Shown: piece by piece, positions 47,201 to 52,009 of the stretch
Position numbering within the stretch: the first letter of the stretch is position 1
Layout: every line of letters begins with the position of its first letter
Assembly (NCBI GenBank): GCA_024643385.1
Contig: JAHEMZ010000001.1
Span: 1-64,000, forward strand
From: Flavobacteriaceae bacterium
Lineage (GTDB): Bacteria; Bacteroidota; Bacteroidia; Flavobacteriales; Flavobacteriaceae
Length of the DNA: 64,000 bases
Reading direction: 5' to 3'
The notes under the pieces: generated by a model
What the model was told of the DNA's origin: nothing
Database searches by the model: none
What the model saw: only the letters and a program-made list of their open reading frames with translations
Made by a program: the position numbers and the translations under genes

Positions 47201-47749
47201 AAGATCCTCGATTTCATCTTCTAAGTATTCCCCAAATTCTTTTAGCTTTTCAGTGGGATAATTTCCTTTGATATTGATATTACTGATGGGTGTTTCTTCT
47301 GAAAAGTTCAGGTCAAACACATTGGGTTCTACTTTCGCACCATTGAAAGTAGGCCAGTCTTCTCCAGATTTTTCAACGTCCACTTCGTCTTTCACCTTTT
47401 GTTTGGCATCTTCAACCGAAATATTCTCATCGAATTCAACGGTGATAATACCGTAGTCCTCTTGGGAAGTGGAGATGATTTCCACCACATTGGATAGGTT
47501 CTTCATTCGATCCTCCAACGGATCTACAATCAGTCTTTCAATATCTTCTGCAGTATTCCCGGGGTAAGGCGTACTAATGTATATTTTGGTTTCTTTGATC
47601 TCGGGAAAAGTCTCCCGAGGCATATCATAATAGGCTTTTCCTCCTAATAATAGGATCACACCGATCAACACATAAATAATCGTCTTGTTGTCAATGGCCC
47701 ATGAGGAGAGTTTAAACTCTTTATTAATACTCTTCTTTTTCTTACTCAT
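44258..47749 (-). CDS. RND-type efflux permease (HAE1-like)
   Basis: A 1163-residue inner-membrane pump with the RND layout: TM1 near residue 25, two large periplasmic loops, and a second TM bundle. In TM4 the AcrB Asp pair D407/D408 reads D414/N415 (MLVDNGIVVVEN). In TM10 the AcrB K940 position reads N1023 (GIVVNNGVVLLDY). The proton relay therefore differs from AcrB, as in many Bacteroidota pumps. It is the last gene of a four-gene operon with TetR, TolC and MFP and overlaps the MFP gene by 8 bases. Substrate range is unknown. Confidence 0.95.
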   Translation of the reverse strand: MSKKKKSINKEFKLSSWAIDNKTIIYVLIGVILLLGGKAYYDMPRETFPEIKETKIYISTPYPGNTAEDIERLIVDPLEDRMKNLSNVVEIISTSQEDYGIITVEFDENISVEDAKQKVKDEVDVEKSGEDWPTFNGAKVEPNVFDLNFSEETPISNINIKGNYPTEKLKEFGEYLEDEIEDLPEIKQVDIRGAQKLEVQVAVDIYKMMAAKVSFDDVINTIRNGNMTISAGNMISSGQRRTIRVLGEIENPEELDNFVVKTQGGPVYLRDIAKVSFQEEEKTTYAREFGEGVVMLDVKKRAGKNMVEAALKVEQIVENAKANVFPQDVEVTIANDQSAKTINQVDDLVNNIIFGIILVVTVLMFFLGFRNALFVGFAIPMSMFMSFMILSALGYTMNTMILFGLIMGLGMLVDNGIVVVENVYRLMEEEGMSRIRAAKEGIGEIAFPIIISTLTTVAAFIPLGMWPGVMGEFMIYFPITLSVVLGSSLFVAIFMNSMLVSQYMETEERVLSLKSLIRLSVILGGIGLLILIFGGTMRGLGSLMIFTALLFWMYKYFMKKWANAFQRTTLPWLEESYKRFLNYALTGWKPFAFFGGTFLLLFIVFGLFGVSVVKQRTSVEFFPDNKPNQIVVYIEYPQGTDIEKTNAVTRDIEKRVYAVLNDKQYFEGDHYNFMVESAVSQVGEGAGNPQTDGGSAAEMPHRGKITATLREFKFRKGKDSEVLRKRVQETLKGIYPGVAISVEKDPVGPPVGYPINIEIEGDDYDELIQTAELMRNFINSRNISGIDELKIDVNKGKPAMQVYVDRKKAGELGVAAGQVGNQLRRSIFGEKAGVYKKEGDDYDIYVRFKEELKDDKSALFNQNITFRDQATGQLKEVPLSAVTTRKNTSSFSAIKHRDGKRVVTVYSALEAGYTDAGAIVSQIQTEMSNFTSLSKDIKIDYTGQIEEQNKQMQFLMGAFFSGLGLIMFILIFQFSSISKPTIIMLAIFLSFIGVFGGILVTGASFVIMMTMMGIISLAGIVVNNGVVLLDYTQLLIDRRMVELGMEDDELLSKPEVKQIIIKAGKARLRPVLLTAITTVLGLIPLAIGFNMDFFALFNNFDPNIYFGGDNVIFWGPLAWAVIYGLVVATFLTLIIVPVLFYIVHRIKLRMRNWFSKKKVAPNA

Positions 47750-48920
47750 GGTTCTCTAGCTTTAGGATATCAACCGATTGCCCATCTTTTACACTTCGTG
47801 CGCCTTCATAGATAATGGTGTCCCCGTCCTTAATACCCTTTAATATCTCAACAAGGTCGCCTTCCGTTTTCCCGGTGGTTACAATAACACGTTCGGCAAT
47901 GTACTCTGCCGACTCTTTCGATTGATGGGTGACAAAAATATATTGTTCTCCTTCCGCATTCTCAGACAATACACTTTGTGGAATTAAAATAGCGTCAGGA
48001 TTACTGTAGTCGTTAATTTTCAATTGGGCGGTAAGGTTGGGTTTTATTTGATTATTGTTATTGGGTACTTTCACTTCAATTTTAAAAGTCCTGTTCGCCG
48101 GATTGATATAGCTCCCCACTTGCCTAATACTGGAAGTAATGCTATCGCCCAGCACCGGGAAATATACCTGAACGGTTTTTCCTTCCGTAACATCACTTAC
48201 ATAGCCTTCCGGGATCTCGGCTTGAATATACATATCGGACAGGTTCACCAAACGAAATAAAGAAGTTACTCCAGGACTTACGACCGTTCCTTGTTCTGTC
48301 ATAACATCATCGATAACACCCGAAAATGGTGCAGTAATATTTGTTTTTGCGAGCTGGGCTTTCATCTGGTTCACCGCATTTTGTTGACTTTCATAACCGG
48401 CTTTTGCTTGTAGGTACTGAATTTCACTTCCAATTTTTTGCTTCCACAGACTTTCTTGTCGTTCAAAAGTCGTTTTGGCCAATGCCACTTGCACTTCCAT
48501 TTGAGCCAATTGCTGTGAAAGTCCGCCGTCGTCTATACGACCCAACAATTGTCCTTTTGAGACTTTCTGACCTTCTTTTACATATACCTGTGTAAGCATT
48601 CCGGCATATTCCGGATATAACACAACATTTTGTTTGGTCGCAACATCGCCTTGAATTTCCAGGTAATGATGAAATTCCTCCACCTTAGCTTTAAAAGCGG
48701 TAACCAAGGGAAGTTTTTTAAGGGTGTCTAGTTTGCCAATCGCCTCATCAATAGATTCGAGTTCTGCGTTTATTAAACTTTGCTGGTTCACGATTTCGGT
48801 TCTTTTCGCTCGTATAGCTTCCAGATCTCCGGAAGCAATAATAGATTCTGTCGATTTTTTATCACCGCCACAGGCGGCTAATACAAATAACAGGATTAAG
48901 GTATAAAATGACGTTCTCAT
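47742..48920 (-). CDS. Efflux periplasmic adaptor (MFP/HlyD type) lipoprotein
   Basis: A 392-residue membrane-fusion protein. The lipobox ends at C17 (LFVLAACGGD). After a coiled coil (about 30-65, TEIVNQQSLINAELESIDEA), a lipoyl-like domain contains VYVKEGQKVSKGQLLGRIDD; an alpha hairpin and the beta-barrel domain follow, with NPANRTFKIEVKVPN near residue 270. It links the RND pump to TolC. It overlaps the pump gene by 8 bases and follows tolC by 24 bases. Confidence 0.95.
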   Translation of the reverse strand: MRTSFYTLILLFVLAACGGDKKSTESIIASGDLEAIRAKRTEIVNQQSLINAELESIDEAIGKLDTLKKLPLVTAFKAKVEEFHHYLEIQGDVATKQNVVLYPEYAGMLTQVYVKEGQKVSKGQLLGRIDDGGLSQQLAQMEVQVALAKTTFERQESLWKQKIGSEIQYLQAKAGYESQQNAVNQMKAQLAKTNITAPFSGVIDDVMTEQGTVVSPGVTSLFRLVNLSDMYIQAEIPEGYVSDVTEGKTVQVYFPVLGDSITSSIRQVGSYINPANRTFKIEVKVPNNNNQIKPNLTAQLKINDYSNPDAILIPQSVLSENAEGEQYIFVTHQSKESAEYIAERVIVTTGKTEGDLVEILKGIKDGDTIIYEGARSVKDGQSVDILKLENHE

Positions 48921-48944: not shown

Positions 48945-50294
48945 TTAGTTTTTTAGTTGAGGAGTATTTAAAATTGTTTCCAATTCAGCCTTGCTGTTAA
49001 TTACATTTAACAGCGATTGAAAGTATCTCTGTTGGGCTAAATAGAGTTGGGTCTGAGCTTGTCGCAGATCAAAACTGGAAACCAGACCTTCGCTAAATTT
49101 GATCTGATTTTTAGATTCAATCCGTTCCGCTAAGGATAAATTTTTCTTAGCATTTTCATAGACCTCAATACTAAATTGATATCTATTTTGCGCAGCGTCG
49201 AATTCTAGCTTTAAATTCTGAATCGTTTCGGTGAATAAAGTTTCTGACTGCTCGTAAGCGATTTTTGCCTGCTGTGTTCTTGCACCTCTCATCCCACTGC
49301 TGAAGACAGGAATATTCATGCTGACACCTAAAACGGAAGACTGAAACCAAATTTGATCTCCGTCCAAGAAGGTAAAACTATTGCTATTGGCCTGCGTGCC
49401 GTAATTAACAAAGGCAGAAAGATTGGGTAAGGCCTTGCTCTTTTCCAGTTTCAATTCAAGATTTCGTTGTTCGGTAAGGTTGTAGGCAATTTTATAATCA
49501 ATATTTTCTTCCAGGTTAAGGTCGCGATCTAGGAAGTCCAATTGAATGTTCTGTTTGGCCAGATCATCGAGTTTTTGAGTGAGTATGACTTTGGCATTAA
49601 TGTCAATTCCCAAAGCCGCGTTGAACATTTGCTCGGCAATGGAGCGAGTTCTTAGGGTATTCTTTAAATTGGTTTCAACCTCCAGAAGGGTTATTTCTAA
49701 TTGTTCCACATTTTCTTCTTCCGTAAGCCCGTTTTCGTATATTTTGCGGGTTTCGAACAAATTCTTTTCGAGGGTTTCCTTGTTCTTTTGATCAATTTCG
49801 ATCAATTCATTGGCGATCAAAACACTGCCATAAGCATTAATAACTCCTTTTCGCACCTCCAGCAGGGTTTTTTCGTTAGCATTTTCAGTATAGTCCAAAA
49901 ATACTTTCGCCGCTTGCAAACCAACGAGGTAACTCCCATCGAAGATGAGTTGCTCTAAAGTTGCAAAGGCATTTGCATTTTGCTTTGTGCCAAAAACCAC
50001 AGGGGAAAAAGTTCCCGGATCGCCTCCGAAAAATTCACCGGGGATTAAGGTGACCGGTTGTTTTAGATTGTTGTTATACGAGACTTTTCCATTCAATTGT
50101 GGTAACCCTGTGGCAGTAGTTTCCCATTTCTTTTTTATGGCAATGGCGACATCTCTTCGCGAATTAAGTGCCGTATAATTACTGTCGAGGGCAAAAGAAA
50201 TAGCTTCTTCCATTGAAAATGCATAGCTTTTTTCCTGGGCCAGTGCGTTGGAAGTAATCCAAAGAAAACAAATTAAGATCAGTTTATTAGTCAT
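48945..50294 (-). CDS. TolC family outer-membrane efflux channel
   Basis: A 449-residue protein with signal peptide MTNKLILICFLWITSNALAQ and the two-repeat coiled-coil barrel pattern of the outer-membrane efflux family. Recognisable stretches are MEEAISFALDSNYTALNSRR at the N terminus and RIESKNQIKFSEGLVSSFDL with RQAQTQLYLAQQRYFQSL near the end. It would be the exit duct of the tripartite pump. The start overlaps the end of the TetR gene by 8 bases. Confidence 0.95.
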   Translation of the reverse strand: MTNKLILICFLWITSNALAQEKSYAFSMEEAISFALDSNYTALNSRRDVAIAIKKKWETTATGLPQLNGKVSYNNNLKQPVTLIPGEFFGGDPGTFSPVVFGTKQNANAFATLEQLIFDGSYLVGLQAAKVFLDYTENANEKTLLEVRKGVINAYGSVLIANELIEIDQKNKETLEKNLFETRKIYENGLTEEENVEQLEITLLEVETNLKNTLRTRSIAEQMFNAALGIDINAKVILTQKLDDLAKQNIQLDFLDRDLNLEENIDYKIAYNLTEQRNLELKLEKSKALPNLSAFVNYGTQANSNSFTFLDGDQIWFQSSVLGVSMNIPVFSSGMRGARTQQAKIAYEQSETLFTETIQNLKLEFDAAQNRYQFSIEVYENAKKNLSLAERIESKNQIKFSEGLVSSFDLRQAQTQLYLAQQRYFQSLLNVINSKAELETILNTPQLKN

Positions 50295-50895
50295 TTGTTT
50301 TTGTGTTGATGAATTGATTGAGTATTTGTAAACCTTCTTTGGTTACGATTCCTCGAAGGTGATATTCCAGATATTCTTCAATAAGAAGGTCCTTTGGATA
50401 TTGATCCACAGGAAAGACAGAGTCATCCTTGATCCCAAAGACGCCTATAAAATAGATGCGAGAAACAAAATCAATGTTCAAGTTTTTGCGATATAACCCT
50501 AATGCGACTCCTCTTTTTAGATTGTTCACGGTACAATCGCTCATTTTTTCAAAATGTTTTAATCGAAATTCCTCATGGATTTCCGGGTAGTACTTTTGAA
50601 GCTGATATTGTGGAGAGGATTTCTCATTTTTTAATTGAAAAGAAACCAACTTTTTGATCTCATAGAGTTCTTCAATGGGATTCTGATTCAAGGAGCAAAT
50701 GCAATCTATTCCTGCGCTGATCGAATCAAAAACATTAATCACTACCTCCCGAACCAAGGCTGTCTTATTGTTGAAATGAGTATAAATGGTCTTTTTTGAA
50801 ATACCCATTTCATGTGCGATATCATCCATGGTCACACTTTTGAAACCAAGGTTGATAAACATTTCTGCAGCTTTAAGTACTATTTTATCTTTCAT
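50287..50895 (-). CDS. TetR-family repressor of the RND operon
   Basis: A 202-residue regulator. The N-terminal helix-turn-helix is read as VTMDDIAHEMGISKKTIYTH followed by FNNKTALVREVV; the C-terminal ligand domain is helical and not conserved. It is the first gene of the operon with tolC, MFP and the RND pump, and its own promoter carries a 28-bp palindrome overlapping the -33 element. Autorepression relieved by a pump substrate is the natural model. Confidence 0.93.
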   Translation of the reverse strand: MKDKIVLKAAEMFINLGFKSVTMDDIAHEMGISKKTIYTHFNNKTALVREVVINVFDSISAGIDCICSLNQNPIEELYEIKKLVSFQLKNEKSSPQYQLQKYYPEIHEEFRLKHFEKMSDCTVNNLKRGVALGLYRKNLNIDFVSRIYFIGVFGIKDDSVFPVDQYPKDLLIEEYLEYHLRGIVTKEGLQILNQFINTKTND

Positions 50896-50902
50896 GAGGG
50901 CG

Positions 50903-50932
50903 CAAATGTAAGTCGGGAAACTTTTAAAACAA
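50903..50932 (-). promoter_or_regulatory. Promoter of the TetR-RND operon (TTG - 19 bp - TACATTTG)
   Basis: On the minus strand TTG (50930-50932) and TACATTTG (50903-50910) are separated by exactly 19 bases, the clearest consensus Bacteroidota promoter in the window. The TetR ATG follows 7 bases after the -7 box, so the mRNA would have almost no leader. Confidence 0.7.
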
Positions 50933-50943
50933 AAAAAGTTTCC
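50916..50943. promoter_or_regulatory. Candidate TetR operator palindrome
   Basis: Perfect 10-bp inverted repeat GGAAACTTTT (50916-50925) / AAAAGTTTCC (50934-50943) with an 8-base centre AAAACAAA. It covers the -33 element and most of the promoter spacer ahead of the TetR gene, so binding would exclude RNA polymerase. Confidence 0.65.
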
Positions 50944-51034
50944 AAAGTTTTACAATTATTTAACATTGAAAGAAATCCTATGTTATGTATCAGCTTATTA
51001 CATCCTAAATCTTATTTTAGCGTCAAAATTGTTT

Positions 51035-52009
51035 ATGCAAGAATTGGTTTTTTTTAAGGAGGTGTTGGAGCAAACGATGAGTCAGCGCAAAATGCCGCAG
51101 GATCCAAAACGGCTATATGAACCGATTCAATATATACTCTCTTTGGGAGGTAAGCGTTTGCGTCCGGTTTTAACCTTGCTGACTTGTGAGTTTTTTTCGG
51201 GCGATTACAAAAAAGCTATTGATGCGGCGCTTGCCGTGGAACTTTTTCACAATTTCTCACTGATCCATGATGATATCATGGATGAAGCACCGTTGCGAAG
51301 GGGTGAGGAAACCGTTCATACCAAATGGGATATAAATACCGGGATCTTATCCGGGGATGCAATGCTTATTTTGGCATATCAGTATTTTGAAAATTATGAA
51401 CCAAAATTGTTTAGCGAGCTTGCCAAACTTTTCAGCAAGACGGCTTTGGAAGTATGTGAGGGACAACAGTATGATGTCGACTTTGAAACCCGAAACGATG
51501 TGACCCTATCAGAATATTTAAAAATGATCGAATACAAAACGGCAGTTTTGGTGGGAGCAGCCATGAAAATGGGAGCCATCGTCGCAGGGGCATCGAATGA
51601 GAGCAAAGAAGGAATTTATGACTTTGGCAGAAATCTTGGGATCGCTTTTCAATTGCAGGACGATTACCTGGATGCCTTTGGAAATCCTGATACTTTCGGA
51701 AAGCAAGTGGGAGGCGATATCATCGCCAACAAGAAGACCTTCCTGTATCTAACTGCTCTGGAAACGGCTGGTCCTTCTGAAGTTGAGGAACTAATTAAAT
51801 TGTTCAGCACTAGTCCGAAGGATCCTTCAGAAAAAATACATAGGGTGAAATCCATATTTGAACGATCAGGGGCTGTCGCTGCCACAGAGGAAAAAATAGC
51901 CGCGTATACTTTAACGGCAAATTCGATTTTAGAACAAGTACAGATCTCAGAGGATCGAAAAGAAAAATTAAGGGAATTCGGTCACTGGCTTATGGGACGA
52001 ACCGTTTAG
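51035..52009 (+). CDS. Polyprenyl (trans-isoprenyl) diphosphate synthase
   Basis: A 324-residue chain elongation enzyme that condenses isopentenyl diphosphate onto allylic diphosphates, probably for the quinone side chain. Both aspartate-rich motifs are visible: DDIMD (residues 79-83, followed by EAPLRRG) and DDYLD (in FQLQDDYLDAFGNPDTFGKQ). GGKRLRPVLTLLTCEFF is the conserved IPP-binding opening. I chose the ATG giving MQELVFFKEVLEQTMSQ; a longer reading adds 23 unconserved residues that include promoter sequence. Product chain length cannot be judged firmly. It overlaps the convergent barrel gene by 4 bases. Confidence 0.93.
   Translation: MQELVFFKEVLEQTMSQRKMPQDPKRLYEPIQYILSLGGKRLRPVLTLLTCEFFSGDYKKAIDAALAVELFHNFSLIHDDIMDEAPLRRGEETVHTKWDINTGILSGDAMLILAYQYFENYEPKLFSELAKLFSKTALEVCEGQQYDVDFETRNDVTLSEYLKMIEYKTAVLVGAAMKMGAIVAGASNESKEGIYDFGRNLGIAFQLQDDYLDAFGNPDTFGKQVGGDIIANKKTFLYLTALETAGPSEVEELIKLFSTSPKDPSEKIHRVKSIFERSGAVAATEEKIAAYTLTANSILEQVQISEDRKEKLREFGHWLMGRTV

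Follow-up and report, generated by a model that had tools for sequence, protein, structure and literature searches.

In Riemerella anatipestifer, deletion of raeB from the raeR-raeC-raeA-raeB genes increases susceptibility to aminoglycosides and detergents, as described in passages of the original report (PMC5727081). The order of these genes (TetR regulator, outer-membrane factor, adaptor and RND pump) is the same as in the operon analyzed here, the two being likened by gene order alone, and the same passages describe no operator or RaeR binding. Other repressors of efflux pumps are QacR, of which two dimers bind a 28-bp operator (reviewed in PMC6018408), and SmeT of Stenotrophomonas maltophilia, which blocks RNA polymerase and represses the smeDEF pump as well as its own gene (PMC3128119).

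We analyzed a 64,000-nucleotide stretch of a Flavobacteriaceae genome (contig JAHEMZ010000001.1, positions 1 to 64,000; hereafter the window), in which an earlier note had pointed out a palindrome ahead of a TetR-RND operon and predicted autorepression. The palindrome is very probably the operator of an autorepressing 202-aa TetR encoded first in this operon, a reading based on sequence comparison.

Results

A palindrome over the promoter of a TetR-RND operon

The operon is encoded on the minus strand in the order TetR-OEP-HlyD-RND, with the palindrome at its head (Table 1). The tetR and OEP genes overlap by 8 bp, as do the adaptor and RND genes, and the gap between the OEP and adaptor genes is 24 bp. 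From this layout, tetR would share one transcription unit with the three efflux genes. Its product belongs to the TetR family according to the PF00440 (TetR_N) helix-turn-helix domain (48.8 bits against a cut-off of 24). The AlphaFold model, a monomer with ten helices and a mean pLDDT of 87.7, is consistent with an all-helical TetR fold and a C-terminal domain for ligand binding and dimerization; its listed fold matches in the PDB were TetR-family proteins or annotated regulators, mostly named as TetR-family proteins, and SmeT structures were among them.

Table 1. Positions of the operon genes, the palindrome and the promoter elements in the window.
Feature	Position	Strand	Remark
RND permease, 1163 aa	44258..47749	-	Pfam ACR_tran 7e-157
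Periplasmic adaptor (HlyD/RND_mfp)	47742..48920	-	TIGR01730 above cut-off
Outer-membrane efflux protein (TolC/OEP type)	48945..50294	-	overlaps end of tetR
TetR-family regulator, 202 aa	50287..50895	-	Pfam TetR_N 6e-13
Codons S33-K-K-T-I-Y38, start of recognition helix	50782..50799	-	invariant in 31 orthologues
-7 element TACATTTG	50903..50910	-	TAnnTTT spacing in relatives; PMC9723704
Predicted TetR operator, 28-bp palindrome	50916..50943	.	AAAC/GTTT invariant in 170 aligned sites
Left arm GGAAACTTTT	50916-50925		10 bp, perfect
Palindrome spacer AAAACAAA	50926-50933		8 nt
Right arm AAAAGTTTCC	50934-50943		10 bp, perfect; outer span of both arms 28 bp
Core half-sites GGAAACT and AGTTTCC	50916-50922 and 50937-50943		within predicted operator
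-33 element TTG	50930..50932	-	at dyad centre; promoter type from PMC9723704
Flanking AAAAC box, possible extra half-site	50947..50951	-	conserved within family
Upstream TGTTAAA box, same promoter	50959..50965	-	UP element-like; conserved
Divergent polyprenyl synthetase gene	51035..52009	+	neighbour in most of family

The palindrome, GGAAACTTTT-N8-AAAAGTTTCC, lies 20 bp upstream of the TetR start (ATG at 50895), over a minus-strand promoter TTG-N19-TACATTTG. The earlier note had described this 28-bp repeat over the -33 element and spacer, the promoter, and an operon headed by TetR; each stood up to re-examination, including the perfect 10-bp arms, for whose length alone a repeat search with the default minimum of 12 bp missed the palindrome. 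Inverted repeats with arms of at least 10 bp and gaps of at most 12 bp number 11 in the window, against a mean of 1.25 in shuffled sequences, so the palindrome by itself is not rare here; its significance comes from conservation.

In Flavobacterium psychrophilum, the -7 box is found at -12 to -5 (PMC9723704), which places the predicted transcription start near 50898 and the palindrome at about -18 to -45. The tetR mRNA (window 50896-50910) is thus predicted to be almost leaderless, with a leader of 3 nt. For 121 of 162 relatives, too, the predicted leader is no longer than 10 nt, which is notable because only 5.5% of the mapped F. psychrophilum mRNAs are leaderless (PMC9723704).

Conservation in Flavobacteriaceae

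The TetR was present in 281 of the 301 family genomes, and 236 of the 301 carried an exact GGAAACT-N14-AGTTTCC, nearly always once; the reversed control pattern occurred in only a small minority. Genomes with the TetR and without the exact pattern mostly had a near-identical site, differing by one or two changes or by 1 bp in the spacer. The earlier note had made its prediction depend on conservation beside orthologous TetR genes, and 170 of 182 distinct upstream regions (start codons assigned by homology) keep the site with at most two mismatches, while 4 more keep it with a 1-bp spacer change; the sequences are related, and such counts overstate their independence. Among strict sites whose surroundings were fetched, 29 of 30 adjoin the TetR gene. 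Several upstream regions with no near site carry it farther upstream, at the head of the operon. Other cases are L057, where the region stops close to the contig edge, L159, where both arms are symmetrically altered (AAAAAC/GTTTTT), and L002, a distant paralogue from the window's own genome.

In the 170 aligned sites, AAAC (positions 3-6) and GTTT (positions 23-26) are invariant. The conserved core is GGAAACT-N14-AGTTTCC in the family and GGAAAC-N16-GTTTCC across the phylum, not the full 10-bp arms; the search pattern proposed earlier, with arms of 10 bp, would overlook most relatives because of its length. No compensatory change between the arms was seen above column expectation, as the arms hardly vary.

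Such conservation could come from the promoter itself (the -33 box and AT-rich DNA) or from an RNA hairpin. The central G14-T15 step, conserved at 0.97/0.99 in the aligned sites, does overlap the -33 TTG, and the distance from the palindrome to TAnnTTT is held at 4-6 bp in 161 of 170 sites. However, it is the outer arms that are invariant; they are no part of the promoter consensus, and they are intact in L149, where the centre of the palindrome is flipped. The arms are retained as well in the second copies that some loci carry downstream of the YceI promoter (see below). As for a hairpin, the arms lie upstream of the predicted start and are therefore absent from the operon RNA. We consider an origin in promoter or hairpin extremely unlikely. 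A conserved, operator-like palindrome over the promoter is what would be expected of an autoregulated TetR-RND operon.

Two further boxes stand upstream of the palindrome. The flanking AAAAC box has its AAAC 9 bp beyond that of the first arm, on the outer side. This flank and the central GTTT may be further half-sites, which they resemble, and are perhaps partly promoter. The TGTTAAATAATTGTAAAAC box (window 50947-50965) is conserved at this promoter and unique in the genome as an exact match, and similar boxes were seen at both promoters in several of the loci with a YceI gene. For the TGTTAAA box, TGTTAAAWAAWTGTAAAAC has a single exact genomic copy. A second nested repeat, AAWAC/GTWTT, was discarded, its association being weak (p=0.02) and confounded by ancestry.

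The site moves with the head of the operon

A natural REARRANGEMENTS was found in genus g129 (probably Flavobacterium), where a YceI-family gene (PF04264) lies between the synthetase gene and tetR. The palindrome precedes the YceI gene, frequently as a pair of copies, and several species have it before tetR as well. In six loci (L207, L210, L211, L215, L217 and L219) only the YceI promoter carries the site, and tetR therefore probably depends on that promoter. Examples of these inserted lipocalin genes under the same operator are L216:1626-2147, L211:947-1456 and L214:1571-2092; in several YceI species, a second, inverted operator copy lies just downstream of the first promoter. YceI proteins are described as bacterial lipocalins, and since one from Burkholderia captures antibiotics (PMC5350466), pairing with a pump is plausible. 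The operon starts with other genes elsewhere: a short secreted-type gene with a signal-like start in L163, with the site at its head, 467 bp from tetR, and a DHFR/RibD-like gene (named by eye and not by profile) in G328 (L376), with the site ahead of it.

In 170 of 182 loci, the polyprenyl synthetase gene stands divergently beside the TetR operon, a pairing of genes that has been kept over a long time. As the palindrome is about 90 bp from the synthetase ATG, the operator might also, or mainly, control this upstream neighbour. We regard this as unlikely: the site persists outside the family with no synthetase neighbour, in the YceI genus, copies occur both at tetR and near the synthetase gene, and it is on the tetR side that the spacing to the -7 box is tightly held.

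Nearly always one site per genome

The earlier note had suggested that the half-site could be used to find a regulon. This did not prove to be the case, as the window's own genome contains one real site, its other near matches not exceeding the control level, and nearly every family genome likewise contains a single one. The sole wider target seen was the YceI gene next to this operon in one genus. L199, L200 and L201 have additional strict sites at a distance from tetR, with no TetR nearby, and these were treated as unrelated. Two of these sites, L199:2033-2060 and L200:2016-2043, belong to one genus and match the palindrome pattern exactly; the L199 copy is at the 3' end of uvrC and is perhaps a terminator stem.

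Pairing of the site with a recognition helix

In other families of Flavobacteriales, GGAAAC-N15..17-GTTTCC precedes most of the TetR genes, whose products are 27-39% identical to the window TetR, and just one of these loci has the synthetase neighbour. The site recurs in further orders and classes of Bacteroidota; overall, outside the family, GGAAAC-N16-GTTTCC precedes TetR genes that are 25-40% identical. The genes downstream code for efflux parts, either TolC-like or, in L296 and L298, HlyD with an ABC ATPase (assigned by eye).

The residues S33 to Y38 begin helix 3 of the model (helix 34-40). The TetR_N genes of 11 Bacteroidota genomes were listed, which avoided choosing by similarity to the window protein, although the genomes themselves were chosen for containing a relative of it; nearly all of the genes were fetched and 77 were scored, an operator being called at no more than 1.5 mismatch units within 250 bp. 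The operator adjoins 11 of 14 genes whose products have SK[KR]T[ILMV]Y, compared with 0 of the 63 that have a different helix (Fisher 5e-11, indicative only, as the genomes are related and not independent). Shuffled 250-mers matched the same criterion in 6 of 3000 cases. Three of the 11 positives (L280, L295 and L296) have one-mismatch sites; L280, with its site 167 bp away, and L296, with its site 1 bp away, are less certain. Among the exceptions, L279 has the site before a YceI gene. The others, L362 and L335, are second SKKT paralogues with no site within 250 bp and count against the operator model.

The placement of TetR as first gene is circumstantial support for its binding to the palindrome, and another regulator, such as a global one, could in principle bind there and control the pump operon. 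A global factor fits poorly with a site that occurs roughly once in each genome and nearly always beside this TetR gene, and the presence of the site tracks the recognition helix across divergent TetRs. Such a regulator is, in our view, very unlikely, and binding by the TetR itself is the preferred reading. The prediction of an operator and of autorepression in the earlier note is strengthened, since the putative operator is conserved, follows the head of the operon and is linked to the helix.

Discussion

In the mechanism that we propose, the TetR would bind GGAAAC-N16-GTTTCC, which covers the -33 box and the spacer, each half-site being read by the recognition helix that starts with SKKTIY. 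The bound repressor would block RNA polymerase and so repress its own gene together with the OEP-HlyD-RND genes, and the placement over the -33 element fits steric repression. Repression would be lifted when a pump substrate or a membrane-stress ligand binds the repressor. Two further points count against this model: the half-sites, 20 bp apart, stand farther from each other than a single ordinary TetR dimer would span, and a simple symmetric site leaves the central G-T step and the AAAAC flank unexplained.

On balance, we lean towards a single code, in which the SKKT[IL]Y helix and GGAAAC-N16-GTTTCC have been kept together phylum-wide in efflux-heading TetRs that are about 25-40% identical, and in which the Flavobacteriaceae operator gained half-site-like boxes (the AAAAC flank and the central GTTT). 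If true, a single DNA word is enough to predict the target throughout an entire clade of Bacteroidota efflux repressors, and the operator outlasts most of its repressor's protein sequence. The repressor and its operator would also form a pair ready for use in genetic tools for these bacteria.

No paper describing this operator was found among the results listed by searches of open-licence literature. The mechanism, a TetR-controlled efflux operon, is ordinary; what appears to be undescribed is the operator, which is of unusual breadth, together with its coupling to a single recognition helix across the phylum.

With QacR, the window TetR shares the family, a 28-bp palindrome with a non-palindromic centre and, by prediction, an efflux pump as target, whereas QacR controls a separate MFS-type pump and the window TetR heads its own pump operon (PMC6018408). 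The half-site centres are 20 bp apart, with a span of 28 bp, in nearly all sites. As this spacing corresponds to two helical turns, binding of two dimers in the manner of QacR is more likely than binding of one, a likeness suggested by the spacing. SmeT, likewise of the TetR family, represses an RND pump and has a pseudopalindromic operator that lies in the promoter region, although its 30-bp probe contains neither GGAAAC nor GTTTCC; smeT and smeDEF have separate promoters, whereas in the window the pump operon begins with tetR (PMC3128119).
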